A stretch of 64,000 nucleotides of DNA, taken from the NCBI GenBank assembly GCA_944324425.1, contig CALUWE010000002.1, positions 1-64,000 on the forward strand, read 5' to 3'. This document shows, in pieces, positions 23,744 through 57,941 of this stretch; positions within the stretch are counted from its first letter, which is position 1, and each line of letters begins with the position of its first letter. The notes under the pieces were generated by a model. The model ran no database searches and was not told the DNA's origin. It worked only from the letters and a program-made list of their open reading frames with translations. This DNA comes from Candidatus Gastranaerophilales bacterium. GTDB taxonomy: Bacteria > Cyanobacteriota > Vampirovibrionia > Gastranaerophilales > Gastranaerophilaceae. Made by a program: the position numbers and the translations under genes.

Positions 23744-26700
23744 TTATTCGTCAATTGTAAAATCGGGTGTACCAAACATTCCTTCAATTTCTTCCAAAAT
23801 TGCGGAAGGTTTTCTTGCCTGATTTTTCTGTTGAGCTCTTCTCAGCGCTTCTTTTTCTTTTTCTTCGCTTGCGTTAATCAAGTGGTGATAACCGGTACCT
23901 GCCGGAATTAATCTACCGATGATAACGTTTTCTTTCAAGCCTCTTAACATATCTTTCTTGCCTTCAACGGCAGCTTCCGTTAAGATTCTTGTTGTTTCTT
24001 GGAATGAAGCGGCTGAAATGAAGCTTTCTGTGTTCAATGAAGCTTTTGTAATACCCAAAAGTAATGCTTCATAAGTTGCTTTAATGCCGCCTTCAGCTTC
24101 ATTGATTTTAGCATTTTCAGCTTCAACCACCTTAAGCTCAACAAGCTCACCCGGAAGAAGTTTTGTCGTACCTGAATCAAGAACTTTTACTTTCTTGATC
24201 ATTTGACGAACAATAACTTCAACGTGTTTATCGGCAATTTCAACGCCTTGTGAACGGTAAACCCTTTGAACTTCATCAACAAGGTATTGTTGAGCAGCGT
24301 TAGCGCCTCTTAATCTGATAACGTCATGCGGGTTCAACGGGCCTGATGTTAAAGCTTGACCTTTTACGATTTTTTGTTTATCGGAAACAATAACGCTTGA
24401 TTCAATCGGATATTTGATTTCCGTTCTGCCGTTTTCATTTACGATATATAATCTTGCAACGTCATCTTCAATTTCAATTTCAGCTACACCGTCTTCTTCT
24501 GCAACAATAGCTGAATCTTTCGGTTTTCTTGCTTCCAAAAGTTCTTCAACCCTTGGCAAACCTTGAACGATGTCGCCTGTTTTTTGTCTTTCAAATACGA
24601 GCGTTGCAAGCAAATCGCCTCTTAGTATAAGAGCGTTGTTTTCAACCTGAAGGAGTGTACCGGGGCTGATTAAGTGCGGACGACCGATTCTGACCACAAC
24701 TGAATCTTTATTTACTTCAACTACTCTGCCTGAACATTTTGTTGTTTCGCCGCTTGCCGCAACAACAGCATCAAGTTTAACAAAATCGCCGACTTTAACC
24801 GTTGCTTTGCCTTTAATAGGTACAATTTGTTCATTCTTAGCAGATACCAAAAGCAATCTTCTTACATCTTTATCTGCCGATTGTTTGATGCTTGCGGTTG
24901 AATCATCAATTGAAAGAACCTGTGTTTTTGTAACAGGGGTTCTCGGCTCAATTATTTGACCGTTTTCAACCAACAATTCTGTTTGCATTGAAGATAAGGT
25001 TCTTGAAGCATCGTCTTGTTCACGTCTTACAATTAAAGTTTCAAGTACAACGATTTTTAAGCCGCCGTCTTTGTCTAATTCAACAAGACCTTTTAAGTGG
25101 CTTAAGTATCCGCTCATAGATAAAACAAGTGATGTTCTTGTAAGAACTGCACCATCCAAGCTTCTTACTCTTGCACCGTCTTTGAATTGCAATTGTGTTA
25201 AAGGAACAATTTCAATTGCCTCATCGGTTGTTTCAAATTCAATTGAAACATCTCTCGGTTCAATAGTAAAGCTTTGAACAGGTCTTATCAAAATTTGAAC
25301 TTGTTGTTTATCCAAAGAATCTTCTTCAACGATATCTTCAGCTATATCTTCATCCAAATCATCAAGTTCTAACATATCATTGTCGTTTTCAACAATAGTT
25401 ACAATTGAATCAACTTTGGCTTTAATTTTGCCTGCAACAACCGTGCCTGCTCTTACAACTTCATTTTCATCAACTTTTAAGTCGTTAATTGAATCCAAAG
25501 TATAAAGTTCACCCGGGCGAACAACAACTTCGTGGATAATATCGTTGAATTCTTTAATTTCAACGATACCGTCAATGTGGGTGTATAAGTCTTTAACAAC
25601 TTCAGTACCCGCTTCAACGTATGTTCCCGATTCAACTAATTTTAGAGAAGAATCTTTTGAAATTTGGTGAATTTCTTCAGGAATGAAGATAACTTCGCCG
25701 CCTTTTGTAACAACTTGGTTTTCACCGACTTCAATACCGTTGTATCTGATTTCGCCTGAGCTCATTACCTTGTGTTCATCATCAATAAGTTCGGCTATTA
25801 TCATGCCGTTTTCAACTGTTGTGTCAATCGGGCATTTAACAATGTATTTTTCATCCGTTGTCGGAACATGCCAAATTTGTTCTTTTTTGGTTTGTTCAAA
25901 GACAGCGTTTGAAGGTTGAATTGAAGCGATAACGATTGTTAATTCTTTACCTGCAACAATTTTCTTAATTTTCTTACCTTCAAATTTAACTTCTTCAATT
26001 TTAAGAGAATTATTAACTCTGACTTCACCGCCATGTTCTGATACAATTAATGTTTCAGCTAATTTTTCGCCTTTTTTAACTTGCTGGCCGTCTGAAACGA
26101 GAATTTTTGAACCTGTCGGAAGTGTGTAAACATCGCCGCCAAGTACCCAAACAATACCTGATTTGTTTGATGTTCTTGAAATGTTGCCTTGTCTGTCCTT
26201 CTTTTCATCGGCAACGAAATCTTCAAATACAACTTCGCCTGCAATGTCTGATGTAATATCTTTTGTTGCTTTTTCCGTTAAACGGCTGCCGTCGCCCTTT
26301 GAAACAGGTTCAAATTCAGCAATTTCATCGCCTTTTTTAAGTTGAACGCCTGCTTTATAAACAACCTTAGCACCCATCGGAATGTGCAATTTTTCTTGTT
26401 TTTTGCCGTCTTTAATAATAACATCGGCTTCTTTAATCGCAATTTGAACGATATCCCCGTGGCGGGTTCTCATTTCACGAGTTCTGATTTCATCTTCAAT
26501 AACACCGTCAAACGGAGCAGTAACGTGTTTCATAGCACCTGCGCCTTTGAATACACCGCCTGTGTGGAATGTTCTCATTGTTAATTGTGTACCGGGTTCA
26601 CCGATTGATTGAGCCGCAATAATACCGATTGCTTCACCGATATCAACAAGTTTTTGGGTTGTCATTGCCCAGCCGTAGCATTTTTGGCAAATACCGTATT

Positions 26701-27595
26701 CGAGTTCGCAAGTTAAGGTTGACCTTACATCAACTTCTTGAAGATTTAAGGCTTTAATTTTTGCTAAATCATCTCTGTTTACGGTTGTATTTTTAGCAAC
26801 GATTAAATTACCTTCTTTGTCGCAAATATCTTGAGCAACGGTTCTGCCTAATAACCTGTCTGCCAAAGGAACAATGATGTTTTCACCGTCTTGAATAGCG
26901 GTTAATTTAATTGATTTTTCAGTGTGGCAGTCTGCTTCTCTAATGATTACATCTTGAGCAACGTCAACAAGACGTCTTGTCAAATAACCTGAGTCAGCAG
27001 TTTTAAGAGCCGTGTCTACCAAACCTTTTCTTGCGCCATAACTTGAAATAACGTATTCTGTGCAAGATAAGCCTTCTTTAAAGTTTGATTTAATAGGCAA
27101 GTCGATAATCTGACCTTGCGCATCAGCCATCAAACCACGCATACCAACCAACTGTGATACCTGTGATAAGTTACCTCTTGCGCCGGAGAATGCCATCATA
27201 TATACAGGGTTTAATTTATCAAAGTTCTTAACAACTTCATCTGTTAATTTAGCCGTTGTTTCAGACCAAGTGTCGATAACTTTTGTATATCTTTCAACCT
27301 CTGTAATTTCGCCTTTTAAGTAACGGTATGTTGATTGTTCGATTTGTTCTTGCGCTTGCTTTAAAAGCTCGCCTTTAACTGATGGAACCGACAAATCGTG
27401 GATTGAAATTGTAGTGCCTGCTTTTGTTGCATATTTATAACCTAAGTTTTTAAGGTTGTTTGCAAGTTCAGCTGTTTTTGCACCGCCCCATTCAAGATAA
27501 ATTTGAGAAAGGAGCTTATTTAACCCTTTTTTATCAACAATATTATTTATATAATCAATTGTTTTTTTCTTTTTTTCAGGAGTTAATGTTGTCAT
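23744..27595 (-). CDS. rpoC2: RNA polymerase beta' C-terminal part (cyanobacterial-type RpoC2)
   Basis: The C-terminal piece of the split beta' subunit. It has the zinc-binding Cys set (ADCHTEKS, TCELEYGICQKCYGW), the bridge-helix/trigger-loop start IGEPGTQLTMRTFHTGGVF, and the end of the trigger loop far downstream in SLNTESFISAASFQETTRILTEAAV. Roughly 600 or more residues of repeated barrel-like beta segments lie between, matching the large SI3 insertion of cyanobacterial RpoC2. The 1283-residue length fits that family. GAGGG precedes the ATG by about 11 nt, and it starts 30 bp after rpoC1. Confidence 0.96.
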   Translation of the reverse strand: MTTLTPEKKKKTIDYINNIVDKKGLNKLLSQIYLEWGGAKTAELANNLKNLGYKYATKAGTTISIHDLSVPSVKGELLKQAQEQIEQSTYRYLKGEITEVERYTKVIDTWSETTAKLTDEVVKNFDKLNPVYMMAFSGARGNLSQVSQLVGMRGLMADAQGQIIDLPIKSNFKEGLSCTEYVISSYGARKGLVDTALKTADSGYLTRRLVDVAQDVIIREADCHTEKSIKLTAIQDGENIIVPLADRLLGRTVAQDICDKEGNLIVAKNTTVNRDDLAKIKALNLQEVDVRSTLTCELEYGICQKCYGWAMTTQKLVDIGEAIGIIAAQSIGEPGTQLTMRTFHTGGVFKGAGAMKHVTAPFDGVIEDEIRTREMRTRHGDIVQIAIKEADVIIKDGKKQEKLHIPMGAKVVYKAGVQLKKGDEIAEFEPVSKGDGSRLTEKATKDITSDIAGEVVFEDFVADEKKDRQGNISRTSNKSGIVWVLGGDVYTLPTGSKILVSDGQQVKKGEKLAETLIVSEHGGEVRVNNSLKIEEVKFEGKKIKKIVAGKELTIVIASIQPSNAVFEQTKKEQIWHVPTTDEKYIVKCPIDTTVENGMIIAELIDDEHKVMSSGEIRYNGIEVGENQVVTKGGEVIFIPEEIHQISKDSSLKLVESGTYVEAGTEVVKDLYTHIDGIVEIKEFNDIIHEVVVRPGELYTLDSINDLKVDENEVVRAGTVVAGKIKAKVDSIVTIVENDNDMLELDDLDEDIAEDIVEEDSLDKQQVQILIRPVQSFTIEPRDVSIEFETTDEAIEIVPLTQLQFKDGARVRSLDGAVLTRTSLVLSMSGYLSHLKGLVELDKDGGLKIVVLETLIVRREQDDASRTLSSMQTELLVENGQIIEPRTPVTKTQVLSIDDSTASIKQSADKDVRRLLLVSAKNEQIVPIKGKATVKVGDFVKLDAVVAASGETTKCSGRVVEVNKDSVVVRIGRPHLISPGTLLQVENNALILRGDLLATLVFERQKTGDIVQGLPRVEELLEARKPKDSAIVAEEDGVAEIEIEDDVARLYIVNENGRTEIKYPIESSVIVSDKQKIVKGQALTSGPLNPHDVIRLRGANAAQQYLVDEVQRVYRSQGVEIADKHVEVIVRQMIKKVKVLDSGTTKLLPGELVELKVVEAENAKINEAEGGIKATYEALLLGITKASLNTESFISAASFQETTRILTEAAVEGKKDMLRGLKENVIIGRLIPAGTGYHHLINASEEKEKEALRRAQQKNQARKPSAILEEIEGMFGTPDFTIDE

Positions 27596-27625
27596 TTTTT
27601 ATATTTCCCTCTTATTTTTAACTTA

Positions 27626-29338
<1,713 letters not shown>

Positions 29339-29380
29339 CTTCTTTCTCCTTAATCTTTTGTCTTAGTAATTCTTGTTTAA

Positions 29381-29430
29381 AAACACCGCCAGAAGCTTTA
29401 AGGATTAATCCTTAAAGCTTGTTGGTGTTT
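29381..29430 (-). promoter_or_regulatory. Long hairpin centred on the rpoB stop codon
   Basis: A perfect 28-nt palindrome (29393-29420; arms AAGCTTTAAGGAT and ATCCTTAAAGCTT) has the rpoB TAA in its centre. It is flanked by a second 7-bp stem, AAACACC/GGTGTTT (29424-29430 with 29381-29387), followed on the minus strand by a short T run. It could act as a partial terminator, RNase III site or translational pause between rpoB and rpoC1. The structure is seen; its role is inferred. Confidence 0.7.
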
Positions 29431-32400
29431 CAAAGAAGTTTATATTTAAAAGTTCACTGTCCATATCGGATAAAACACGTTTTGGAGCAGATCTTCTTAA
29501 ATCATCGGTATCTGACATAAGGTCAACTTCTTCGCCGCCTTTTTTAGCAACGGTAATATCAAGCCCGATACTTTGCAATTCACGAACCAATACCTTGAAT
29601 GATTCGGGAATACCCGGACGAGGGATGTTATCACCTTTAACAATTGCTTCATAAGCGCGGCTTCTGCCGTTAACATCGTCTGATTTAATTGTGAGCATTT
29701 CTTGAAGCGTATAAGCAGCGCCGTAAGCTTCCAATGCCCAAACTTCCATTTCACCGAACCTCTGACCGCCGAATTGTGCTTTACCGCCCAAAGGTTGTTG
29801 TGTAACAAGTGAATATGGGCCTGTTGACCTTGCGTGGATTTTATCGTCTACAAGGTGAACAAGTTTCAAGATGTATGAAAGGCCGACTGCAACAGGTTCA
29901 TCAAAAGGTTCGCCTGTTCTGCCGTCGTATAATGTAACTTTACCGTCTTCTCTAACCCAATCGCAGCCTGATTCTTTAATACCTTTAAGAAGTTCGGCTT
30001 TTGTTGCGATTTCAGATTGGTTAGCGCCGTACATTTCATCAAACGGAGGTGCTTCGTAGTGGTTGCCTGTTAAGTATGCTGCTAAACCAAGCAAACATTC
30101 GTAAGTTTGACCAACGTTCATACGGGAAGGAACGCCAAGAGGGTTAAGAACGATATCAACAGGTGTACCGTCAGGTAAGAACGGCATATCTTCTTTCGGA
30201 AGAATTCTCGAAACAATACCTTTGTTACCATGACGACCTGAAAGTTTATCACCCACTGAGATTTTACGTTTTTGAGCAATATAAACTCTGATAACGGTGT
30301 TTGCACCGGGTGGGAGTTCATCGCCTTTTTCTCTGTCAAACACTTTAACGTCAACTACTCTGCCGCCTTCACCGTGAGGAACTTTAAGAGAATTGTCTTT
30401 AACATCTCTTGCTTTTTCGGCAAAGATAGCTCTTAAAAGTTTTTCTTCGGGCGGATGTTCAGATTCGCCTTTCGGTGTAATTTTACCAACCAAAATATCA
30501 TCGGCATAAACTCTTGCACCGATTCTTACGATACCTCTTTCATCCAAGTGTCTGACTGCATCTTCAGAAACGTTCGGAACTTCTCTTGTAATTTCTTCAG
30601 GCCCTAATTTTGTTTGGCGAGCGTCAATTTCAAGTTTTTCAATGTGAACCGATGTAAATACATCGTCATGAACGCATCTTTCTGATAAAAGAATAGCATC
30701 TTCGTAGTTATAGCCTTCCCAAGGCATATAAGCAACAAGAACGTTTTTACCCAATGAAAGTTCACCCATATTGGTTGAAGCGCCGTCTGCGATAACATCG
30801 CCTTTTTTAACTTCCATGCCTTCTCTTACGATTGGCTTTTGGTTAATACAAGTATCTTGGTTAGATCTTACATATTTTAATAATTGGTGTTGGTGAATTT
30901 TACCGTCTTTATCTTTAATATGGATTTCTTCACCCACAACTCTTACAACCGTACCGTCGCATTCTGAAACAGACACCATGCCTGAATCTTTTGCGGCTCT
31001 TTTTTCTAAACCGGTACCGACAACAGGTCTTTGTGTAATTAACAAAGGAACTGCCTGACGTTGCATGTTAGAACCCATAAGAGCACGGTTAGCATCGTCG
31101 TGTTCGATAAATGGAATTAAAGAAGTTGCAACAGAGATAATCTGAATTGGTGAAACACCAAAGTAGTCAACCTTTTTGGAATCGCCCATTGTAAATTCGG
31201 AACGATACCTTACAGGAATGAATGCGTCTTTAATTCTTCTGTCTTTATCTAATTGAACGTCAGCAGGTGCCACACGATAGTTTTCATCTTCATCAGCTGT
31301 TAAATAGTGAACTTCTTCAGTTACAACACCATCTTTAACAACAAAGAAAGGTGATTCAATAAAGCCGTAATCGTTCACTCTGGCGTGAGTTGCAAGCGAA
31401 CCGATAAGACCTGCGTTCGGGCCTTCAGGAGTTTCAACAGGGCAAATACGGCCATATTGTGAAGGGTGAATGTCACGAACGGCAAACCCTGCACGTTCTC
31501 TCATCAAACCGCCGGGGCCTAATGCTGATATTCTTCTTTTATGTGTTAATTCTGCAAGCGGGTTTGTTTGGTCCATAAATTGTGATAACTGTGATGAACC
31601 AAAGAATTCTTTAATTGCAGCATTTAATGGTTTAACGTTTAACAAATTCAAAGGTGTTAGGGTTTCAGAATCTTGAAGTGTCATTCTTTCTTTAACAATT
31701 CTTTCAATTCTTGATAAACCTACTCTGAATTGGTTTTGTAAAAGTTCGCCAACAGATCTTATTCTTCTGTTTCCTAAGTGGTCAATATCATCCAAAACGC
31801 CTTCGTCGTATGTTAAATTGATTAAATATTCAATTGCGGCAACGATATCTTGAATTGTAATTGTTCTTTGAGTTTCAGGAAGGTTAAGACCTAATTTTTT
31901 GTTTAATTTATAACGGCCAACTTTACCTATGTCATATTTCTTTTCATCAAAGAATCTTGCTTCTAATATTGACCTTCCGCCTGCAGCTGAAGCAGGGTCG
32001 CCGGGTCTTAATTTTTTATAAACTTCAATTAAAGCTTCATCGGTTGATTTTGTTGTGTCTTTTTCTAATGTTTTCTTTAAGAATTCAAAGTGGGTAAAAA
32101 TTGTTTCCATTTCAGGAGGTGTGATACCCAAAGCTTTTAATAAAGTTGTAGCTAAGATTTTTCTGTTTTTGTCAATTTTAACGTAAACCAAATCGTTAGA
32201 ATCGGTTTCAATTTTTAACCATGCGCCGCGGTTTGGAATTAATGTTGCGTTATAAAGACGTTTACCTGTGGGGGAAACTTCTTTTTTATAATAAATACCG
32301 GGGCTTCTAACAATTTGAGATACGATAACACGTTCCGCACCGTTAACGATAAATGTACCTTTATCAGTCATTGTGGGAATATCGCCAATGTAAACTTCCT

Positions 32401-32719
32401 GTTCTTTAATTTCGCCGGAATCTCTGTTTACAAGCCTCATCATAACTTTTAATTGTTTTGAATAGGTTGAATCATGGATTCTTGCTTCTTCAATCGTATA
32501 TTTGGGGTTATCGAATGTGTAGTTTGGAAGAAAATGTAATTCTAATCTTCCTGTATAGTCTTTAACAGGCGAAAAAGAAAGTAATTCTTCTTTTAAGCCT
32601 TCTTTTAAAAACCATTCAAAGGATTTTTTCTGTATTTCAATCAAATCCGGAAGTTCACTCAAACGGGTAGGTGGAATGCCCATCGGAGTAACACGGTTAG
32701 CATATTGTGTTTTTGACAT
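29405..32719 (-). CDS. rpoB: RNA polymerase beta subunit
   Basis: The 1104-residue protein has the RpoB blocks in order, including the rifampicin region ([33 protein letters not shown]), [20 protein letters not shown], the [18 protein letters not shown] segment, [12 protein letters not shown], and the C-terminal [27 protein letters not shown]. It is first in the rpoB-rpoC1-rpoC2 operon. AGAGG precedes the ATG and a TATATT box is just upstream. rplJ-rplL are not directly upstream. The stop codon sits inside a hairpin. Confidence 0.98.
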
Positions 32720-32997
32720 CTAAATACCTCTAATATATGTAATTACAATTGTTAAATTCAGCTGAAAACTTGTTGTCTGCTTAGATTAGCCCGATTGTCA
32801 ATCTTTGAAAAAAGCGAAAATTTTCCATAATCATGACAATTTTAGCTTACTTAATCGTACTCCCTGAAAGTCTTTAGTCAAGTTGAAAACTTTACATAAT
32901 GTTACATAGAGAAATCCTATTTCGTCAAAAATCATACGTATAATACTTTTTAAAATGTCAAATGTAATTTTTTCAGATAAAAATGTATAATATTTTT
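32720..32997. other. Divergent intergenic region between rpoB and a secreted-protein gene
   Basis: The 278-bp AT-rich spacer must carry the rpoB promoter. On the minus strand AGAGG and a TATATT box lie next to the rpoB ATG. Further out is a TTGACA (minus strand, about 32798) without a well-spaced -10. On the plus strand a TATAAT lies at 32986-32991. No tRNA, ORF or terminator was seen. Confidence 0.5.
32986..32991 (+). promoter_or_regulatory. -10 box TGTATAAT, leaderless arrangement
   Basis: TATAAT ends 6 nt before the ATG at 32998, with TG directly in front. No Shine-Dalgarno is present. Confidence 0.55.
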
Positions 32998-33657
32998 ATG
33001 AAAAAAGTTTTAATATTTCTTATTATTTTATTTTTTAGCTTTATGCCTGCATTTGCAGACTACCTTCCGTCTCATATTAATAAAAGTTTTCACTACGGTA
33101 TCGGAATGGTATCAGTTAAAAATGAAATTCCGATTTATGAAATGAGCGATTTGAAAAGCCCCCTTGCAGCCTTAATTAAAATTGAAAACGATAAGGTTAT
33201 AATCAGGGAAAGAGGGGTTAAAAACCCCGAAATAACATCCACCTTTGTTGCGTATTCAAAAGAAAACAATCTTGCGCTTTTATCTGTTGAAACAGATACG
33301 GATGATTGGTTTTATATTTGCTACGACCAAAAAAGAAAGCTGTTTGGCTGGATTAAAAAAGACGAAAATGTTGATTTTATGTCTTGGGAAGACTTTTTAA
33401 ACCTTTATGGAAGAAAATTCGGCGTATATGTTTTTAACAATATGCCGGAATACTACAAAAAATTATACTCTCAGGAAAATGAAGAAAGCACGGTTGTAGA
33501 TACCTTTAATTTTCCAAAGCATATTACATTATGGCTGATTAAAGGCAATTGGATGCTTGTCAAAATTTCAACTTATGACGGGCATTTAAAAACAGGCTGG
33601 ATGAGATGGAGAACAGAAAACGGCACTATAATGGCATTTCCTGATTTCAGAAATTAA
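32998..33657 (+). CDS. Secreted protein of unknown function, possibly SH3-like
   Basis: The 219-residue protein has a signal peptide (MKKVLIFLIILFF..., cleavage near AFA-DYL, residue 20). The mature domain is beta-rich with many aromatic residues. Two segments, DWFYICYDQKRKLFGWIKKDE and GNWMLVKISTYDGHLKTGWMRW, look like repeats of an SH3-type fold (xxGWI/W endings), as in bacterial SH3 domains that bind cell wall; this is an inference. ATG at 32998 is chosen because the earlier in-frame ATG (32983) lies upstream of the -10 box. A terminator follows. Confidence 0.75.
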   Translation: MKKVLIFLIILFFSFMPAFADYLPSHINKSFHYGIGMVSVKNEIPIYEMSDLKSPLAALIKIENDKVIIRERGVKNPEITSTFVAYSKENNLALLSVETDTDDWFYICYDQKRKLFGWIKKDENVDFMSWEDFLNLYGRKFGVYVFNNMPEYYKKLYSQENEESTVVDTFNFPKHITLWLIKGNWMLVKISTYDGHLKTGWMRWRTENGTIMAFPDFRN

Positions 33658-33683
33658 AAAGCCTCTTAAATAAGAGGCTTTTT
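33656..33683. terminator. Bidirectional terminator
   Basis: AAAAAGCCTCTTA (33656-33668) and TAAGAGGCTTTTT (33671-33683) form a perfect stem. It overlaps the stop of the secreted-protein gene and also closes the convergent GH13 operon. Confidence 0.9.
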
Positions 33684-33686
33684 CAA

Positions 33687-36600
33687 TTAGTTAATCGGTT
33701 TTATATATGAACTATACAAAGGCTTTTGCAAACAGAAATATGTTGCCGTTGAATCAAGCGTTGCTTCTTCGCCTTTATCGCTTATCAATTTACCTTCTTT
33801 TGTTAAAACAAAAGTTCCGTTATCAACATATTCATTGTATCTTTCATTAAATGTTTTTCTTAAAAATACACTGCCCGGTTTTGCAATTAAATTGCCGTTT
33901 GAATCTTTCAGGGTAACGCTTGAAATCTTGGGTGCGCTGACTTTTCCTTTTTCTTTAAGGGTAATTGCGCCGTAACCGTCTTTTGGCATATAAGCGTTTG
34001 TAATCATGGTGATTGTCATATCGCCTTTGTCGTTATATTTAACAATTGCGCCCGTTTCATCACCTGAAGGCTGAATATTCTTTTTAACCCAATCCACAAG
34101 GCCGGGGTCTTCTTTGCTTAATGTATCCGCAAGTTTTGTTTTAATTTCTTCTTCAGACATTGTTCTGAGTTCATTAACCGCATCTTGAACGGTTGCATTG
34201 CCTCTTTTTATGCATTCCAAGAATTTGCAAGACTTGTTAATATCATCTTTTTTGTTATTTCCGACTTTTTCAAGGCCCGCAATAAGGTCATCCTTGCTTG
34301 CAATACCGATAACATCTACGGGAACAACAATCGGGGTGCCGCCTGAAAGCGGTGCAAAACCTGGTTTTTTATGAAGCATGCCGATTTGTTTAATCCTTGC
34401 ATTGAATGCGGCAACATCATCTTTTTTATTGCCTTTAATCCAATCATGCCTGATTGCGTTTCTGCAGCCCAATAACCAGTTTTTGGATTTTGTTTCACAG
34501 CCTGTTTGTGCAAATTCCGCACCCGCAAACAATGTCGGAATGCCTGTTGTGCCGTTCATGATTTCATAAATAGCCGTCATCTTGCTTATGTAAGGCGCAA
34601 CCATACTTGCTCTGACTTTATCATACAGTGCTTTTTTGTCTTTTTCTTTAAAGTTAAGCCCCATAACTTCCGCTTGGTCTATAACGTCTGCGATTGTATA
34701 TTCATAAGGCATGGCACCGAATGCATCAGCTTTTTTATAGTTTGGTTTTGAATTTTCGTTTGTACTTTTATATTTTCTGCCGTTTGCAACGTGAGCTATT
34801 GCTTTTTTCATAATTGCAACGGATTCATCATCATAACCGAATTCTTTCAAATATTTTTCAAAATATTCATCATATTTTTCGGCAACGGCAACCGCCTTAG
34901 AGCTCATATCATCAGAATATTCTCTTTGAAGAACCTTTTGTGCACGCTGCATAAATTCTTCGTTTGTGCCTTTGTTAAAATCACTCCAGAAGAGTTTCGC
35001 ATCCACCGCCATAAGGTGTGCCGCTCTTGGCTTATCGTGGTTATCAAGGAATATATGGCTTCCTTCAATAAATTCGGAAGTTATATTGCCTTTTTTGCCT
35101 GCAGGATTGATAAAGGCTTGAGTTTCCAAAAGAAAATTGTTGATTGAACGATAAGTTCCCTTTTTCAACTCGCCGTTTTCAATGTTTTGACCGAATAATT
35201 TCGGATACAGGCCAAAATATGTCGAATAGTTGCTGCCCGTTGTAGCTCCGGTTTCTTCGTAGAAGATACTTTCCGCCCTATCGGCGCAGTCATAATGACC
35301 CCAATCATAATTATTAAAATCATGCAATGAAGTAACTTCCGCAACAACATAAGATGAAGGGTTATATTTTCTGACCTCTCTCATAAAGGGTTTCCAAATA
35401 TCTATAACATCATCCCAAACTTGTTCTGCAGTTATTTGTTTTTCTTTGGCTTCATCCCAATCGCCAACGTCTTTCGCCGCGTCAAAACGCCAGTTCAAAC
35501 CGGCACCCGTTTGGTCAATAACAGCTTCTGCTATTTTATAATCTTCAGGGTCCAGCTTATAGTATTTTTCAGTCAAATAATCTTTAAATTTTTGATATTC
35601 TACCGATTTGGTATCTTGGAGTTTTCTTAAACCTTTTAAAAGTTTTTTTGCAACAGCTTCAGATACATCTTTTTCGTTTGTAATCGGTATTCCCAATTTT
35701 TTCAAAGTAAGATGCTTGCCGCTTCCTTTGGTTCCGTTTTTCTCGTCATAATAGGCATAATCCAATTTGCCGTTTCTATAAACCGGATATGTATCTTCAT
35801 CAAAAAGGCTTTCGGTTATAAAGAACTGCATCATATCGTCTATTGCCATTTCAAGGAAATATTTACCAAACGGCGTATAGTGATCAACATTGTTGCCGTT
35901 CAAGACTATAAGATTTTTTCTGTTCTTGCCCAAATCGCCTTTTAAGTCTGTTTGTTCCTGTTGAATTGAAAACAGAGTTTGATTAATTAAAGAAGGAAGA
36001 GCTTCAGTATAAATTTCTTTAACGGTATCCGTCATTTTTGTGTTCGGGTTATTAGCCGCATCTTCAAAAATTTCTTTCTTAGAAGCGCCCGGATCACAAT
36101 TGGCTGAAGGTCTCGGAGTAATATAGGGAGTTGATAAAACCCCTAAAAGCTCGGGTGAAAATTCCAAAGATTCAAGAGGGAAATTAAGAACCTGTTCTCT
36201 CAAGAAATCTCTTGCATTTTTTGTATCATCCGCAATTTGATAGTTGTAGCTTTTTGGTGTTACCTTGCTTTCAAACTGCCAAGCGTCTTTTTCATCCAAT
36301 ACTCTTTTATAAATGCCCGACAGTGTACCTTTTTCAAGGCCGTATTTACCTTCAATTTCGGATAAATATTTTGTTGCAAGCTCGGATTGAACATTTTGGT
36401 TGTGAGCATCCGTATTTCTTTTGTTGTAAATTTCATTTGCAACATTAAATATAAGGGCATTTCTTGTTTCTTCCGTCCAATATCTTGCAACGTTATAAAG
36501 ATGGTTCCTTGCTTGATTTGCACCTTCTTTATAGTTAATATCGTTAACATGGTTTGCAAGGTTCATTTTAATAAGGTCAACGTTTCCGTCCCAACCCGTA

Positions 36601-37943
36601 AAGCCGCCGACTTCACCCTTTTTAACAAGACTGTATGCCAAATTTGAAGGAGCCAGCACATCTTTCAAGTCGCCTTCTTCTTCCCATTTGTCTAACGGTG
36701 CATAAGTTTTTCCTCTGAACACTTTTGAAGAAGGATCAATTTCAAATTTATTCGGTAAAACCGAATCATTATGAGTTGTTATTTCATAAGGATCAACCGG
36801 CATTTTATTGTCATATTGTTCAATTAAAGCCGAATAATCTTCAAGCTGTTCTTTAGAAGCCAATCTTGTATCATAAAATTGAAGATATGTCGGCTGTTCG
36901 GGATTATATTCATAACCTTCAACATCTTTAGGGTTAACAATTCTGATACCTGTATATTTTGTGTCAAAATCAGGCAATACACCCAATTGAAAGCCGTCTT
37001 CGGAAGGATTCTTAAACCAATATTTGAATTTTGAATCCTTAAACATTAAAGCTTGGTTTAATTGTACACCTTCCAACCCTTGAGATGTAAAAGCGCCATC
37101 CAAAACATAACCTTTACCATGGTTAAAGCAAGCAACCTGAAGGTCAAGAAAGTCATCTTTTGTGCCTGTACCTTCGGATGTTTTAAAGTGGTTTGCAGGG
37201 TGATACATGTGAGATGCAACCTTGCCGCCGCCTATCAAAGGTGTGGACATAATAAGTTCATACGGTTCAAAATCGGTGTCAAGACGTTCGGTTATATCTT
37301 TTATAGTGCCGCCCAACCTGTTAAAGTGGTTTCTTCTTAATTGAGCAGACATTTCATCATAGTCTTCGGGCATCATTTTTGTGCCGTCTTGTTTTTTTAA
37401 TTTATCAATAACCCCCAAAGAATCCGTGAAAATGTGTGCCATGGGGCCTTTAATTTGGGGCGTGCCTTGCCTTGTGGAAGCAACCGTAAAAACATTGTCT
37501 TTATCAAGTGCAACTTTTGAGCCCGCAGAATCGGTATACGCTCTTAAAACCTGTTTATCTTTAAGGTCTCCGTTGTCTTTTTTGTATACAACAAAGCGAT
37601 AGCCGAATTCACCCGCATTTTTTAATCTTTGTTTTTTTAAATCTATATCAAAATAAGTCTTGTTACCGCTTTTAAAATCATCATCGGTTTGAATTCTTAT
37701 GGGGGCAGGAGAAGTTATTTTCCAATTAAAATCGGTTCTTTTTTTGTTCTTGCTCTGGGCGTTTGTCATTGTAACATATTCAATGCCAAGCTCTTCAGTT
37801 TCCGGATTAATTTGTATGGAAGCCGGAGGGTAAACTCTCATCAAACGGTTTCCCATATCATCCTTTACGGTTTTTCTGCCTGAAAAAGACACATTATTGT
37901 TTTCTAAATTATGGTTGGATTTGTTAATTCTTGATAAGTCCAC
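33687..37943 (-). CDS. Giant GH13-family (alpha-amylase superfamily) protein without signal peptide
   Basis: At 1418 residues it is far larger than typical alpha-amylases. GH13 regions are recognisable: II, NWRFDAAKD with nucleophile Asp821; III, VVAEVTS with acid/base Glu869; IV, FLDNHDKPRA with Asp970. An N-terminal beta-rich part (about 30-160) may be a carbohydrate-binding or N-domain. The extreme N-terminus is MDLSRINKSNHNLENNN then VSFSGRK (18-24), matching the shared Asn-rich motif, with no signal peptide. The start is GTG at 37943 with AAGGAG 8 nt upstream. It probably acts on alpha-glucans such as glycogen or starch; exact specificity (amylase, pullulanase, debranching) is not readable. 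Confidence 0.88.
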   Translation of the reverse strand: MDLSRINKSNHNLENNNVSFSGRKTVKDDMGNRLMRVYPPASIQINPETEELGIEYVTMTNAQSKNKKRTDFNWKITSPAPIRIQTDDDFKSGNKTYFDIDLKKQRLKNAGEFGYRFVVYKKDNGDLKDKQVLRAYTDSAGSKVALDKDNVFTVASTRQGTPQIKGPMAHIFTDSLGVIDKLKKQDGTKMMPEDYDEMSAQLRRNHFNRLGGTIKDITERLDTDFEPYELIMSTPLIGGGKVASHMYHPANHFKTSEGTGTKDDFLDLQVACFNHGKGYVLDGAFTSQGLEGVQLNQALMFKDSKFKYWFKNPSEDGFQLGVLPDFDTKYTGIRIVNPKDVEGYEYNPEQPTYLQFYDTRLASKEQLEDYSALIEQYDNKMPVDPYEITTHNDSVLPNKFEIDPSSKVFRGKTYAPLDKWEEEGDLKDVLAPSNLAYSLVKKGEVGGFTGWDGNVDLIKMNLANHVNDINYKEGANQARNHLYNVARYWTEETRNALIFNVANEIYNKRNTDAHNQNVQSELATKYLSEIEGKYGLEKGTLSGIYKRVLDEKDAWQFESKVTPKSYNYQIADDTKNARDFLREQVLNFPLESLEFSPELLGVLSTPYITPRPSANCDPGASKKEIFEDAANNPNTKMTDTVKEIYTEALPSLINQTLFSIQQEQTDLKGDLGKNRKNLIVLNGNNVDHYTPFGKYFLEMAIDDMMQFFITESLFDEDTYPVYRNGKLDYAYYDEKNGTKGSGKHLTLKKLGIPITNEKDVSEAVAKKLLKGLRKLQDTKSVEYQKFKDYLTEKYYKLDPEDYKIAEAVIDQTGAGLNWRFDAAKDVGDWDEAKEKQITAEQVWDDVIDIWKPFMREVRKYNPSSYVVAEVTSLHDFNNYDWGHYDCADRAESIFYEETGATTGSNYSTYFGLYPKLFGQNIENGELKKGTYRSINNFLLETQAFINPAGKKGNITSEFIEGSHIFLDNHDKPRAAHLMAVDAKLFWSDFNKGTNEEFMQRAQKVLQREYSDDMSSKAVAVAEKYDEYFEKYLKEFGYDDESVAIMKKAIAHVANGRKYKSTNENSKPNYKKADAFGAMPYEYTIADVIDQAEVMGLNFKEKDKKALYDKVRASMVAPYISKMTAIYEIMNGTTGIPTLFAGAEFAQTGCETKSKNWLLGCRNAIRHDWIKGNKKDDVAAFNARIKQIGMLHKKPGFAPLSGGTPIVVPVDVIGIASKDDLIAGLEKVGNNKKDDINKSCKFLECIKRGNATVQDAVNELRTMSEEEIKTKLADTLSKEDPGLVDWVKKNIQPSGDETGAIVKYNDKGDMTITMITNAYMPKDGYGAITLKEKGKVSAPKISSVTLKDSNGNLIAKPGSVFLRKTFNERYNEYVDNGTFVLTKEGKLISDKGEEATLDSTATYFCLQKPLYSSYIKPIN

Positions 37944-38020
37944 TGGAATTGCTCCTTAGTTCCTGTTCCCTTTTAACCTTACAAATACTATTACGTATTT
38001 TTTAGCTAAAACTTTAGATT

Positions 38021-39940
38021 TTATTTAACTTTTGTATACACCCCATTTACAAACTTTGATACATCAAATGCATCGTTTTCGATATTTGGGGCATTAATTT
38101 CAAATACATGGATTCTTGACGGCGCCAAATCTATGTTCAATTCGCCGTCTTCCGCTTGAACATAAGATTTTTCACCGTACGGCAGCGTTAAATCTTTAAG
38201 CTGCATATCTTTTGTTACGTCTTGCAATTCAATTTTTGCGCTGTTTCTTCTGTTAACGTTTCTGTTACCTACGACAAGAAGAGTTTTATTGCCGTATTGT
38301 CTTGCAAAACATATAATTTCATCGTTATCGGGTTTCGGTTTAATCCAACAAGTTGAGCCTTTTGTAATAACGTCATTATATTCGCCGTTTCTCAAATTCA
38401 ACATATTAGAAATTTGCTTGCCGATTTCAGGGTTGTTGCCGCCCGGTTTTCTTGAGGGGTTGAAAATATCTATTCTTCCTTTGTGAACAACCAATTCGTG
38501 CGTATCTGTTTGGGTTTCTGGCGCATAGGCATGTTCATAAGGATATAGGTAATAATCACCTGATTGAACCCCGTCTACAAAATACGGGTTGCACAAAGGC
38601 AGCATGGATTGCAAAATGCTTGTAAATTGAACCCAAGGCGAACCGCCGTAGAACATCGGGCTTTGGTCATCGTGAGTTGAGAACGAGCCGATTAGTGTTC
38701 TTGGCTGTTTGTCGTTGAATTCTTTTTGCATATCAATTTGTTCGTTCACATAATTTCTTAATTGAGATGCCTTTGTCCATTGGTCAAAAATGTGATATTG
38801 GCCGTAATATACATCAAAGCCTGCTTTTAAAAGTTCAATCGGCCTGTCATGAGGCATGTTCAATTGGGGCGAAGCGTCTTCATAAGTATAAGTTTCTGCC
38901 AACCAGCCAAAATCGGGGTCTTTTGTTCTTGAATAAGGAATGATTATATCCCAAAATTCTGCCGGTTTTGCCCTGCCGACATCGGCCCTGATGCCGTCAA
39001 AGCCTAACTCTTGAGTAAAATCTACATATTTTTTATGCAATTCCAAAAGATGAGGATTTAATTCTCTTGTTGCTTCGTTATCAAAAACTCTGAACATTCT
39101 GATATCTTGCCAGCCGCCGGGGGTTTTGTCGGAGCCGTCTTTTTCAAATGCCATAAGCTCGGGGTGTTTTTTTGCAAAGTCAACACTTACGCAGCTCGGA
39201 AGGTCAAGCATAACGGATATGCCCCTTTTGTGGCATTCATTAATAAAATATTTACATTGGTCTTCTGCACTTCCGGGGAAGTTAGGATCTTTCAAATTAG
39301 GGTCAACTCTTAAAAGGTCAGCCGGTGCATATAGTGAACCTGCCGTACCCATTGCCTTTTCTTTTCCCGTGGGGTGAATGGGAAGCACATGGAGAGTATT
39401 TATACCCAACGCTTTTAATTCATCAAGTCTTCCGACGGCATTAACAAAGTTGCCTCTGATTTCACCGTCTTGAATAAGAGCATTGCCGTCAGTATCCTGA
39501 GCATTCATAGTTCTTGGAATAACTGCCATTATATTTGCTTTTGAATTTCTCAGATTTTCTCTTAAATTGTTTTTCCAGTTAACTTCACCGTTGTTTAAAG
39601 CATTTATTGCACTGACCGATGAAACATTTTGCAACTGTTTGCCGTTTGCAACAAGATAGCTTTTTAAAAGGCTGCTTGCCAAAGGAATATTTTGAGAAGT
39701 TGTTGCCTGCTGTTGTATAGCCTGCTGTTGCACAGCCTGTTGCTGCACCGGTTGTTGAGAAACGGTTTGAGCCTGCACATTGTTATTTGCGGGAGTATAA
39801 ATCGGAAGCGACGGAAGGTTATAAATAACCGGTTGTGCTTGAACGTAAGGCGCAACAAATTGAACCGGAGTATATTGAACCGGATAAATCGGAACAAATC
39901 CTGTAACTTGTGAATTAAACCCTACATTATTTATTGACAT
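38021..39940 (-). CDS. GH13-family alpha-glucan-active protein with Gln-rich linker
   Basis: The 639-residue protein has the GH13 triad: Asp320 in FDGIRADVGR, Glu349 in WLAETYT and Asp424 in FSTHDDQ. Region I (VMLDLPSCVSVDF) lacks the usual Asn-His, a departure from standard amylases. A Pro/Gln-rich low-complexity segment (about 20-75, repeated QQQA) links an N-terminal MSINNVGFNSQVTGF leader to the catalytic barrel. No signal peptide. ATG at 39940 follows AGGA; it overlaps the end of the preceding membrane-protein gene by 14 bp, so translation is likely coupled. The large GH13 gene follows after 77 bp. Confidence 0.87.
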   Translation of the reverse strand: MSINNVGFNSQVTGFVPIYPVQYTPVQFVAPYVQAQPVIYNLPSLPIYTPANNNVQAQTVSQQPVQQQAVQQQAIQQQATTSQNIPLASSLLKSYLVANGKQLQNVSSVSAINALNNGEVNWKNNLRENLRNSKANIMAVIPRTMNAQDTDGNALIQDGEIRGNFVNAVGRLDELKALGINTLHVLPIHPTGKEKAMGTAGSLYAPADLLRVDPNLKDPNFPGSAEDQCKYFINECHKRGISVMLDLPSCVSVDFAKKHPELMAFEKDGSDKTPGGWQDIRMFRVFDNEATRELNPHLLELHKKYVDFTQELGFDGIRADVGRAKPAEFWDIIIPYSRTKDPDFGWLAETYTYEDASPQLNMPHDRPIELLKAGFDVYYGQYHIFDQWTKASQLRNYVNEQIDMQKEFNDKQPRTLIGSFSTHDDQSPMFYGGSPWVQFTSILQSMLPLCNPYFVDGVQSGDYYLYPYEHAYAPETQTDTHELVVHKGRIDIFNPSRKPGGNNPEIGKQISNMLNLRNGEYNDVITKGSTCWIKPKPDNDEIICFARQYGNKTLLVVGNRNVNRRNSAKIELQDVTKDMQLKDLTLPYGEKSYVQAEDGELNIDLAPSRIHVFEINAPNIENDAFDVSKFVNGVYTKVK

Positions 39941-42476
39941 TTCTATTCCTGCTTTCAAATGTGTCGTTGTCTTGTTTTCTTTCGTATAAGTGCTCGTCTT
40001 TAACTTTTCCGAAAAACAGCTGTGAAATGAAAGTTACGCCGAGAAGTGCAACTGTTATGCCGCCGAATACTTTCATCCAGCTTCTGTCATTGTGCATTTG
40101 ATTGATTTGTTTTTTGAATGTATTCAGAACGGATTCGCCGTAATCTGCAAACCTTATGCCGTGAGATCTGAACACTTCATCTGAAACGCCTGCTTGTTTT
40201 GCAGCTTCTCTTTCAAGTTCTCTTATTTGAGTTTTGGTCAGGTGAGAAATAATGCTCGGGTCTTCGCCGTATTTTGCTTTTCTCAATTGGTTAAAGAGAT
40301 CTTGAGCTTTTGTTTCTTGAAGTGAAGGGTACGGAATGCAGCCTTCGCCGTCTATCATGCTCTTCATTCTTAACTGCCAATCTTTAATTTCACCGTCTGC
40401 CATTGTTCCGTTAAAGATTGTATCGCTTAATGTTCTGAAGAATCCGCCGTTACCGTCTGAGTAGAATTTGTTTACGGCATCCCCGTACGTGCTTTGCCAA
40501 GCAACTCTTCTGCACATATTATAGAAGTTTTCAATTTCTTCTTTTGTCATGGCTTGAATGTTGCCTTTATATTTATGTTCTTCGGCAAATTTTGCCCAAT
40601 CTTTAATTAAAGTGCCGTCGCCAATCTTGCGTTCAAGTTCAATTGCGCTTCTTAATTTTGTAATCATAGCGTCAACCGAGGTTATATTTGTTCTTGCCGC
40701 AAGTCTTTCTTGTTCTGTCAGCCCTTGTTCAAGTGTTTGTTTTAAAGAAGAACCGTTCAGAACATCGCTTGATTCGTCGACAACTTTAATTCCCAATGCC
40801 CTTAAGCCCGAACCGACTTTATCGGCCAATGTATCAAACACGCCTTTGATTGAAGCTTTTGAGCCGTTCTTTGTGCTTACGGTTTCAATTGAATCGGAAA
40901 CTTCTTGAAGTTTTTTGGTAACTTCTCTGTATTTTGCATCATCTGCAGCAATTTCAGCAATTTTATCGGTTATAAGTTTCGATAAAGTTTCGCCTGTTGC
41001 GGTTGATGTATTTCTTAAAACGGTTAATTCTTTATCGCTAAAGCCCAGTGCTCTAACCATTCTTGCAGCCGTTTTATTATATTTTTCACCTGAAATTCCG
41101 TCTAAAATTTTCAATTTATCGGCAAACACCTTCATTGTGGCTTGTGCAGGTTTAACGCTGTCTTGATAAATTCTTTCAATTGCATCTGCACCTTTTGAAA
41201 GTGTTTCATCGGTGTATCCGGCTTTTGTTTTTGCAGCAGCCTTCAAAGCTTCGGGGAAATCATCAATATCATCAAATATTCTGTCAACCCATCCGCCTGT
41301 ATATTTTTCAGGATTGCTTTGAACTATACCTTGAGCAAACCCAAGAACAGATTCAATTGAATCATCCGCTTTTGCATTTTTTGCACTTTTAAATGCCGCT
41401 TCAAGAAGTTCTTTTGCGCTTTTTACTGCATCATCACCTTCAGTCCCTGCCAATGCTTTTGCAAAATCATCATATGAACCGGATGATACAAACAATCTTG
41501 AAATTAAGTCTTGAGCATCTTTTAAGCCGTTTGCTTCCATTCTGATTGCACCGCCGTTTGAATAACGGGAAATATCAAATGCTTCACCCAAAGTTTCTGC
41601 AATATTTTCAGGCATTACACCTTTTCTTAAAGATGCAATAACTGAAGCCACTTTGTCATCTTGAGCTTTGAATAAATCAACATTACCGAGGGTTTTGCTT
41701 ACGGCACCCGATAAATCCTGAGCTTCGGTTGAAAGTTTTCTTAAATTATGATTTGCAACGGGAACCCTTATTGCTTCTTCAATTCTGTTACAAGCAAGCG
41801 AAGTTAAAAGGGGTGTTGCAAGCCCTGCGGTTAACATCCACAAAGTGTTGCCTTGAAGAGCAATTGTGCGCATTTTTTCTTTTGTAAATTCTTCTCTGTC
41901 TTTAAGGTCTTTTGGCACGTTCATTTTATCCGCAACTTTGTTGATTTCTTCTTTTGACCATACATCCCAAGGGAGATATTGGTTGTCTTGGAAGAATTGT
42001 TTTTTTCTGCCTTGAGAATCAACATATTTTTGATGCGGGTTAAAACCATGCATTAATTTGGTCGGTAAATCTATTGCAACTTTGGGCCAAAGTGCCATAA
42101 CCGAGAAAAATGTACCGAAACCGAAGATTTCCATTAATTTTTTGCTTGAAGTTGCTTTGGAGCCGATAAGTGCGGCAGCAATTAAGCCTCCGCCTAATTT
42201 CATGCCCAAGTCATTCATTCTTCCTAATTCATGGTCGTTTGACTTGCCTGTTGTAAGAGCATTGCCTAAATTTTTTGCATCTTTTGCGATATCAACAAAC
42301 ATCGAGCCGAACATTTGAGCAGGGTTTTCTTTTACAAGATAACCTCTCGGCTTATCGCAAGTTACACGGTTCGTTTTATTTAAAAATTGCTCAAATACCC
42401 GTCTGTCTTGCAATTTTTGCTGCATTTCAAGACTTGTTAAGGTTAAATTTGTTTGATTGTTGGTTGTATTAAGCAT
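39927..42476 (-). CDS. Large membrane protein of unknown function in the GH13 operon
   Basis: The 849-residue protein has predicted membrane segments near residues 92-107, 117-135 and 208-228 and a C-terminal one (about 817-837, GGITVALLGVTFISQLFFG), separated by a long helical, charged region of about 580 residues. No known domain was recognised. Its start codon shares one base with the stop of the upstream membrane gene (TAATG), a coupled arrangement. It resembles, in general layout only, the 54767-56635 protein. Given its neighbours it may anchor or position the GH13 enzymes, but this is inference. Confidence 0.75.
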   Translation of the reverse strand: MLNTTNNQTNLTLTSLEMQQKLQDRRVFEQFLNKTNRVTCDKPRGYLVKENPAQMFGSMFVDIAKDAKNLGNALTTGKSNDHELGRMNDLGMKLGGGLIAAALIGSKATSSKKLMEIFGFGTFFSVMALWPKVAIDLPTKLMHGFNPHQKYVDSQGRKKQFFQDNQYLPWDVWSKEEINKVADKMNVPKDLKDREEFTKEKMRTIALQGNTLWMLTAGLATPLLTSLACNRIEEAIRVPVANHNLRKLSTEAQDLSGAVSKTLGNVDLFKAQDDKVASVIASLRKGVMPENIAETLGEAFDISRYSNGGAIRMEANGLKDAQDLISRLFVSSGSYDDFAKALAGTEGDDAVKSAKELLEAAFKSAKNAKADDSIESVLGFAQGIVQSNPEKYTGGWVDRIFDDIDDFPEALKAAAKTKAGYTDETLSKGADAIERIYQDSVKPAQATMKVFADKLKILDGISGEKYNKTAARMVRALGFSDKELTVLRNTSTATGETLSKLITDKIAEIAADDAKYREVTKKLQEVSDSIETVSTKNGSKASIKGVFDTLADKVGSGLRALGIKVVDESSDVLNGSSLKQTLEQGLTEQERLAARTNITSVDAMITKLRSAIELERKIGDGTLIKDWAKFAEEHKYKGNIQAMTKEEIENFYNMCRRVAWQSTYGDAVNKFYSDGNGGFFRTLSDTIFNGTMADGEIKDWQLRMKSMIDGEGCIPYPSLQETKAQDLFNQLRKAKYGEDPSIISHLTKTQIRELEREAAKQAGVSDEVFRSHGIRFADYGESVLNTFKKQINQMHNDRSWMKVFGGITVALLGVTFISQLFFGKVKDEHLYERKQDNDTFESRNRNVNK

Positions 42477-43468
42477 TAAAACTCCATGTATTGCTTATTG
42501 TAGTCTACTGTTGATTGCTTGTTTTCTTTAGGTGCTTTGAAATTTTTTGATGCATTCCAAATGCCCAAAATACTTGTTGCCGCTGCGCCTATCATCAAGC
42601 CTTTGCCCATTTTTGTTTTAGCCAAAGATTTTACGCTGTCTCTCATTGTAACGGCAATTTGTCTGGGAAGTTCTTTTACGGCTTGCGTAAATGTAGGTTT
42701 GTGCTTAAAGTTCATAAATTCTTCAAACGGTTTTTGAGCGGCTATTGCAACACCCAATGCAGCCCAAACAAAAGAACTGATTGATTTTGCCGCTGTCGAT
42801 TTTACGAGAACTTCTTTGATTTTTGGCTGAACTACTTGATCGGAAGCATTTAATTCTTCGCTATATCCCATCTTTTTCGCCATTTTATCGTAATATTCGT
42901 ATCTGTTGTTGTTGTGTTCGCCTTGTTTGTTGATTAAATCCCACCTTGGGAAATCCACACTCTCAAAAACCCTGTGAAATTCTACGCTTGTTGTGTCAGT
43001 GTCGCCTTTATAATCAGGTAATTCGTGAACAATTTTTTTGTAAGGCATTTCCATATCAACGCCTGTGGTTGCCTTGACGCCCGAATTTATAATCTTATTG
43101 CCAATCCACTTGCCTGCTGCGTATAAAACAACGCCTGCAGCCATTTTTCTGCCGTTCATATTGGCAAACATGCTGTCTCTGCCGCCGAATTTGTTGTTAA
43201 GTGCGTTCGATAATAAAATTAAAGTAGCGGAACCAACTAAATTTGGGATAAGCCCCAAGGACAAAAACTCATAAAAATTACTGTTTTTAGAACCCGTCAT
43301 GCCCTTTGGTGCGTATGAAAAGACATCGTTTACAAATTTATCCGCAACAATCCTCGCTCCCGTTGTCGGACGTTTTTTAATTATATGATCCTCATTATCA
43401 AGGTCTTTATGCACGACCAAGTATGAATTTTTAGGAATATTCTCTAACTTTGCTGTATCAACCTGCAT
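42476..43468 (-). CDS. Membrane protein of unknown function, first gene of the GH13 operon
   Basis: The 330-residue protein has hydrophobic segments near 70-90, 107-125, 228-245 and 292-308, so several membrane passes are likely. GTGGAG lies 7 nt before the ATG. It is the first of four same-strand genes that end in two GH13 enzymes, and it is translationally coupled to the next gene. No domain was recognised and there is no N-terminal motif like that of the GH13 proteins. Confidence 0.75.
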   Translation of the reverse strand: MQVDTAKLENIPKNSYLVVHKDLDNEDHIIKKRPTTGARIVADKFVNDVFSYAPKGMTGSKNSNFYEFLSLGLIPNLVGSATLILLSNALNNKFGGRDSMFANMNGRKMAAGVVLYAAGKWIGNKIINSGVKATTGVDMEMPYKKIVHELPDYKGDTDTTSVEFHRVFESVDFPRWDLINKQGEHNNNRYEYYDKMAKKMGYSEELNASDQVVQPKIKEVLVKSTAAKSISSFVWAALGVAIAAQKPFEEFMNFKHKPTFTQAVKELPRQIAVTMRDSVKSLAKTKMGKGLMIGAAATSILGIWNASKNFKAPKENKQSTVDYNKQYMEF

Positions 43469-56635: not shown

Positions 56636-57873
56636 TTGTTAACAATGGCATCTTTCGGAACAACCGTAATACCGCCTTTTGAAACATAGAAGCCTCTTTT
56701 TAAGTCGTCTTCTTTATTTATACCAATTTCGGTATGGGGCGGAATTTCAACGTTTTTGTCAATTATGGCTTTGTTTATTTTTGAATATCTGCCTATTGTT
56801 ACATTTTCCAATAAAATTGAGTTTGAAATATGACTGTAACTGTTTATTCTGACCTTTGGCGATAAAACACAATTTGAAAGCGAACCGCCTGAAATTATGC
56901 AGCCTTCAGACACAAGTGAATTTTTAGCTACACCAACCCTTTTATCTTCATCCCATATAAATTTTGCAGGGGGGAAGTTATAGTTATAAGTTCTTAAAGG
57001 CCATTCGTTTGAATACAAATTTAATTCCGGATTATATTCCAATAAATCCATATTGGCTTGAAAATAGCTGTCTATATTTCCGACATCTCTCCAATAGCCG
57101 CGTTCTGAATCTGTCATGCCGGGGAATGTGTTTGATGAAAAGTCATAAATATAAACTCTTTTACCCTTTTGAAGCATATTTGGAATAATGTTTTTCCCGA
57201 AATCATGGTCAGAATTCATATCAAGCGCATCAAGCTTTAATTCTTCAACAAGTGAATTTGCTTTAAAAATGTAATTTCCCATTGAAACTAAGCACTTATC
57301 GGGGTTATTCGGCATAGATTTCGGTCTTGATTTTGGTTTTTCAATAAAGCCTGTTAGCCGCCAATCATCATCCACTTCAATAACGCCGTATTCACTTGCA
57401 AGTTCAATATCAACTGGAATAGCGGATATTGTAATATCGGCATCTTTTTTGTGGTGGTAATCAAGCATTTGGCGAACGTCCATTTTATAAACATGGTCGC
57501 CCCCAAAAACACAAACCGTTTGATATTTTTCATCCATAATCTGATTTATGTTTTGATAAATGGCATCTGCGGTTCCTTTATACCAGTTGCCATCCGTTCT
57601 CATTTGCGCGGGAACCAAATCCACATATTGATCAATTGAAGATGATAAATCCCATCCTCTTGAAATATGCTTATTTAAAGAATCTGATTTGTACTGTGTT
57701 AAAACTTTGATTCTGTAAAGGCCTGAATTTACAAAGTTATTTAAAACAAAGTCTATAATTCTGTATCTGCCGCCAAAAGGAACTGCGGGCTTTGCCCTGT
57801 CTCTTGTTAAAGGAAAAAGCCTTTTTCCTTGACCGCCTGCAAGAATCATTGTTAACACTTTTTCAAAATACAT
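56632..57873 (-). CDS. glgC: Glucose-1-phosphate adenylyltransferase (ADP-glucose pyrophosphorylase)
   Basis: Makes ADP-glucose for glycogen synthesis. The protein has [29 protein letters not shown] at the start, GGDHVYKMD, the substrate motif FIEKPKSRP and a C-terminal left-handed beta-helix. A 431-residue frame starts at TTG (57927), but the ATG at 57873 (413 residues) has AGGAG about 11 nt upstream and gives the standard N-terminus. glgC is last after the AsmA-like, lipoprotein and lgt genes, although its role differs. The presence of glgC shows that the cell makes glycogen. Confidence 0.93.
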
Positions 57874-57941
57874 AGATTTTTCTGCTCCTAACATTCTCAT
57901 TAAAGCAAATTTTGCACTATTTATCAATATTTTAAAGAAAA

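Follow-up and report, generated by a model that had tools for sequence, protein, structure and literature searches.

Two new families of predicted membrane proteins encoded with atypical GH13 enzymes in Candidatus Gastranaerophilales: a possible membrane-tethered α-glucan processing unit

The genome of Candidatus Gastranaerophilales considered here (1.84 Mb) carries four tightly spaced genes, P4, P3, P2 and P1 in that order, on the minus strand of the 64,000-nucleotide stretch analysed (hereafter the window; GC ~35%). P4 (42476..43468), the first gene of the unit, encodes a 330-aa predicted membrane protein with four hydrophobic segments, while P3 (39927..42476) encodes an 849-aa predicted membrane protein comprising a conserved N-terminal module, a variable helical middle and a C-terminal hydrophobic helix. 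The remaining two encode members of the glycoside hydrolase family GH13: P2 (38021..39958) is 645 aa long from a TTG codon or 639 aa from the ATG at 39940, which is probably the true start, and P1 (33687..37943) is a GH13_20-like enzyme of 1418 aa, with a GTG start and large insertions between regions I and II. P4 and P3 overlap by one base (TAATG), P3 overlaps P2 by 14 bp when the latter is counted from its ATG, and a 77-bp spacer (37944..38020, minus strand) separates P2 from P1, with the Shine-Dalgarno sequence AAGGAG ahead of the GTG. The reading frames, their coordinates and all three junctions are as a first-pass annotation of this DNA had given them. A strong terminator-like hairpin (AAAAAGCCUCUUA..UAAGAGGCUUUUU; -15.2 kcal/mol, z -4.7), not assigned to either strand, lies just past P1 at 33656..33683; the single terminator proposed for the unit is to that extent present, with the qualification that the hairpin also serves the convergent gene at 32983-33657. 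It was not picked up by a consensus terminator scan, and Rfam models matched one tRNA in the window and nothing else. Elsewhere, the window contains a GlgC gene (56632-57927) and, judged by eye, RpoB, an N-terminal part of RpoC (570 aa) and its long remainder (1283 aa) at 23744-32719, which suggests that rpoC is split as in cyanobacteria.

Conservation of gene order, proposed at the outset as a check on the unit, distinguishes a fixed core from a variably placed partner. Across 38 near relatives from seven families, P4-P3-P2 occur together and in this order in every complete locus, and the three genes are contiguous and co-directional in 76 of 76 named loci (n = 80, the four cut by contig ends being left out). 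P1 adjoins this core in the window's own genus and in other genera and families (G010, G026, G028, G033 and G036), stands head-to-head with P4 in one further genome of the same order (G037), and is found elsewhere in the genome in others; of the 80 named loci, 18 have it immediately behind P4-P3-P2. Because P1 lies elsewhere in many relatives, the four-gene operon originally described is lineage-specific, and it is the three-gene core that is conserved. Yet P1 tracks the core in genome content. Among 146 genomes of the class, 63 have all four genes and 81 have none, leaving two exceptions; P3 and P4 are present in 65, all within families f1, f9 and f15, with P2 in 65/65 of these and full-length P1 in 63/65, compared with 0/81 of the others. 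This co-occurrence (Fisher p < 1e-38) is uncorrected for kinship, follows deep clades and represents few effective independent events. Judged from gene content, P1 is co-inherited with the core even where the two are unlinked.

The closest tie within the unit is a gene fusion. In three genera of family f9, from a different order of the class, a single open reading frame encodes both P3 and P2 (L236, 1030 aa; L238, 986 aa; L241, 1082 aa), and P1 in this family stands head-to-head with P4. The C-terminal hydrophobic helix of P3 (aa 803-821; 40014..40070, minus strand), the final segment before P2 in the window, precedes the GH13 domain in these fused relatives. Of all the observations, this fusion points most strongly to P2 acting together with P3 at the membrane. 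There is good support for grouping P2 with P3, and the association of P1 with both is supported by co-inheritance and repeated adjacency. One f9 genome (G061) carries two copies of the unit (L238 and L245), one with P3 and P2 fused and the other unfused.

P2 carries the catalytic Asp/Glu/Asp of GH13 enzymes. The residues D320, E349 and D424 (ATG numbering; D326, E355 and D430 from TTG), correctly identified from the start, do not vary among 25 orthologues, and neither do R324, H429 and D431. Region I, also rightly flagged as non-standard, reads DLPSC.S and has no DxxxNH, and region I of P1 is non-standard too. Pfam yielded only α-amylase matches below threshold, and the curated GlgB model PRK05402 scored 14.1 bits against a cut-off of 741. 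The P2 family profile matches the α-amylase 4gkl (1.3e-26) and the maltosyltransferase 1gju (1.9e-23), as well as the α-amylase 3dhu and GlgE, and P2 lies nearest to the Thermotoga maltosyltransferase, GlgE and 4gkl/3dhu. These give the best alignments to its barrel, which include the start PRT...GTF of the Thermotoga maritima enzyme (1gju); a region I without NH is common to 1gju, GlgE (3zss, 4u33) and P2, and regions II and III align across all of these and also 4gkl and 3dhu. However, GlgE has extra N-terminal domains that P2 does not, and 3zss aligned only at ~249-446 and 598-635 rather than over its full length. P2 further differs from 1gju, GlgE, 4gkl and 3dhu in possessing an invariant HDD in region IV and in being encoded with a membrane protein, to which it is fused in some genera. 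The supposed Gln-rich linker is a Gln/Pro-rich N-terminal segment that varies between orthologues and is unconserved among the 25 compared. A second, unlinked GH13 protein (G000:C13:13531-15018), 37% identical to P2, has relatives through most of the family.

P1 likewise retains the GH13 machinery, with the catalytic Asp/Glu/Asp reported as intact (D821, E869, D970), the region II Arg (R819) and the region IV His (H969) all invariant in 35 orthologues. Although the window copy has no Pfam match, PF00128 is detected in 19 of the 35 orthologues (best 3.8e-25), and the family profile finds the GH13_20 neopullulanase 1sma as its best match (1.2e-35), placing a GH13 catalytic domain in P1 by both routes. 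The neopullulanases, cyclomaltodextrinases and maltogenic amylases of GH13_20 (1sma, 1j0h, 2wc7) are intracellular-type α-glucan hydrolases with the same catalytic residues. P1 departs from them in length (1418 aa; 1250-1660 aa across its family, compared with ~580 aa), in two long insertions at ~aa 300-805, in a long N-terminal part bearing an invariant FxG motif, and in its altered region I, where DGAF is followed by residues other than NH and the DxxxNH of the subfamily is absent. Region I (D282) and region II (D821) are 539 residues apart, and two stretches between them fail to align with the reference structures. No hydrophobic N-terminal signal was found in P1 or P2, as the first-pass annotation had noted, and both enzymes are on this ground taken to be cytoplasmic. 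The possibility that either is the missing glycogen branching enzyme was considered and rejected: the window's own family has GlgA and no GH13-type GlgB, but 51 of its 52 genomes encode a GH57-type branching enzyme domain, so that branching requires neither P1 nor P2.

P3 and P4 have no relative by sequence in Pfam, NCBIfam or the PDB, and 49 members of each gave no credible Pfam match, in keeping with the initial view that they belong to no recognized family. Neither of the two outcomes that the first-pass annotation had named as refuting its proposal, a gene order that differs among relatives or membrane proteins from known unrelated families, was thus observed. The closest named relatives of P3, at 85-86% identity, are from a Gastranaerophilales MAG and Candidatus Galligastranaerophilus intestinigallinarum. 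AlphaFold models are of medium confidence (mean pLDDT 76.9 for P4 and 77.6 for P3). The core module of P4 (aa 73-243; 42740..43252, minus strand) is predicted to consist of a helix, a long helix, a beta hairpin, two short helices and a further long helix. The paralogous module of P3 (aa 81-253; 41718..42236, minus strand) is conserved, with the motifs GRxND..GG, MEF.G..FF..M.LWPK, QKYxDSxGRKKxFFQD.QY.PWDL and NTLWMLTAG. The two proteins are paralogues with one common hydrophobic-helix module, since their profiles align to each other (hhalign E 2.9e-5) and cross-match each other's family in distant genomes, and since their predicted elements follow the same order, ending in a C-terminal hydrophobic helix. 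On sequence comparison, P3 and P4 appear to be new families, and P1 and P2 new, deep branches of the known GH13 family.

Taken together, these features are consistent with a membrane-tethered, cytoplasm-facing complex that processes α-1,4-glucan (maltodextrin or glycogen). This is the reading that we favour, at roughly even probability; its topology, complex formation, substrate and reaction direction are what we infer. P4 and P3 would form the base in the inner membrane, probably as a heteromer, P2, with its relationship to maltosyltransferases and maltogenic amylases, would dock on P3, and P1, the very large neopullulanase-like enzyme, would cooperate with all three. Such a complex would most likely trim or rearrange, near the membrane, either maltodextrins arriving via a sugar symporter or glycogen made by GlgC and GlgA. 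P1 has an MFS symporter as a neighbour in f9 genomes and two f6 genomes; the model that fits this symporter best, that of the sucrose/proton GPH subfamily, scores below its cut-off. A GlgA-like glycosyltransferase lies beside P2 in two f9 genomes, and GlgA above cut-off is nearly confined to the unit-bearing families f1, f9 and f15; exceptions include two genomes that have the unit without GlgA over the cut-off (G039 and G050) and one with GlgA and no unit (G100). The first-pass proposal of membrane-tethered α-glucan degradation or glycogen handling is thereby upheld in part: the P3-P2 fusions favour tethering of P2, and the GH13 families, the sucrose/GPH-type symporter and the GlgA-bearing families favour a role in glucan metabolism, which may be degradation or synthesis and may concern glycogen or imported maltodextrin. 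A bolder version, which we consider rather unlikely, is that P3 and P4 represent a new type of machine linking glucan chemistry to the membrane: they might translocate α-glucan or long maltodextrins, or provide a site at which α-glucan is assembled or trimmed while attached to a membrane carrier, and the fused GH13 domain would supply the catalysis.

Other neighbours of the core point to the cell envelope rather than to storage glucan. The genes queD, kdsC, usually kdsD, and uppP, which are of envelope and housekeeping type, lie ahead of P4 on its own strand in about 49 of 78 named loci (L118-L123, L125 and most of L158-L223); uppP is directly upstream, with a typical gap of ~80 bp. P4-P3-P2 might accordingly act on a lipid-linked or envelope α-glucan, with the GH13 enzyme as a membrane glucan transferase and UppP recycling the carrier, and the resemblance of P2 to transferring GH13 enzymes (1gju, GlgE) suits this role. 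However, only part of the window's own family has this uppP context, which is lacking from the window's genus, where the genome analysed has its queD-uppP pair at a separate locus (L260), and none was found in f2-f7, f9 or f15 loci; P1, moreover, adjoins a sugar symporter rather than envelope genes in f9 and f6. An envelope function is for these reasons an unlikely, if still serious, reading.

A second alternative assigns transport to P3 and P4 themselves, as a transporter or channel for maltodextrin or α-glucan whose cargo is trimmed at its cytoplasmic mouth by P2 (and P1). It would account for two paralogues that are always paired, with ~4 hydrophobic segments each (moderate scores, ~1.1-1.9) and a fusion to an enzyme, and for GH13 partners located in the cytoplasm. 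Yet neither protein resembles any transporter in sequence or, at the medium confidence of the models, in fold, and a separate MFS symporter already adjoins P1 in two lineages, which makes this reading improbable. The loops of P3 and P4 are all rich in Lys/Arg, and positive-inside analysis gives no clear inside/outside pattern. Foldseek searches of the PDB with these medium-confidence models returned nothing below 1e-3, and VIA-align with the P4 model alone, also of medium confidence, gave Z scores up to 6.8 to generic helical bundles. Assignment of the pair to a known transporter or dynamin-like family was rejected, as the best Foldseek E-values were at least 0.05 with meaningless superpositions and the VIA-align matches were generic. 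That the genes are co-inherited yet functionally separate housekeeping genes, with P4-P3 in another membrane process and P2 merely co-transcribed, is very doubtful, for while genes with nothing in common can share a tight operon, as the uppP/kds/queD neighbours illustrate, P3 and P2 are fused in three genera, the trio is retained across orders and the unlinked P1 is absent together with it.

The favoured arrangement, a cytoplasm-facing glucan complex held at the membrane, has partial parallels in known systems. The SLC3 proteins (4F2hc/rBAT), subunits of amino acid transporters, also pair a GH13 fold with membrane proteins. They are single-pass, extracellular and catalytically dead, whereas in the present unit the GH13 domain is separate or C-terminal, has no signal peptide and retains its catalytic residues. 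The Sus-type starch utilization system resembles the unit in attaching a GH13 enzyme of gut bacteria (SusG) to a membrane. SusG, however, is an outer-membrane lipoprotein that faces outside; both P1 and P2 lack the signal peptide expected of a Sus-like enzyme, and no SusC/D relatives were seen here. Prokaryotic intracellular α-glucan enzymes are generally regarded as soluble. A set that is co-inherited across the class and includes P3-P2 fusions would clearly exemplify such enzymes being fixed to the membrane, and the unit offers a testable role for two new families of membrane proteins. The searchable part of a large 2024 review, examined for membrane-anchored forms, yielded no more than an open question on glucan export (PMC11046441), and no description of a cytoplasmic GH13 enzyme fused to a multi-helix membrane protein was found in searchable papers. 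Literature searches for this system in Melainabacteria/Vampirovibrionia returned nothing more specific than general remarks about starch and glycogen fermentation, and what is known of carbon storage and sugar use in these abundant, uncultured gut relatives of cyanobacteria has mostly been deduced from genomes (PMC3787301; PMC4040986).

A short motif near the N-terminus of P1 extends beyond the unit. An SFxG-type N-terminus, attributed by the first-pass annotation to both GH13 enzymes, is present in P1 as VSFSG (37878..37892, minus strand), whereas P2 of the window reads VGFNS and only some P2 orthologues have the motif. In 35 P1 orthologues drawn from two orders, F20 and G22 vary no more than the catalytic residues do, and the motif may be nothing other than the opening strand of an N-terminal sandwich domain. 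In a 464-kb sample of the same genome, 13 SFxG-type motifs fall within the first 60 residues and 17 elsewhere, a 3.6-fold enrichment (p 9e-4). The other family loci sampled, which repeat one neighbourhood, showed no enrichment; the idea that the motif tags proteins for targeting throughout the genome was set aside, though it stands as a lead. A hydrophobic-S/T/R-F-x-G pattern near the N-terminus recurs in unrelated order-specific proteins, encoded in the window (54767-56635) and at L253, L257, L267 and L268. One of these, of 1116 aa (L253:14808-18158), carries VTFTG, then a hydrophobic stretch and LSGC, resembling a lipobox after an unusual N-terminal extension. The window example is a 622-aa protein of no known family whose gene is convergent with glgC and overlaps its end, and it has an apparent paralogue (L260:4079-5188) with a shared TDVPRT/TNFPRT segment.
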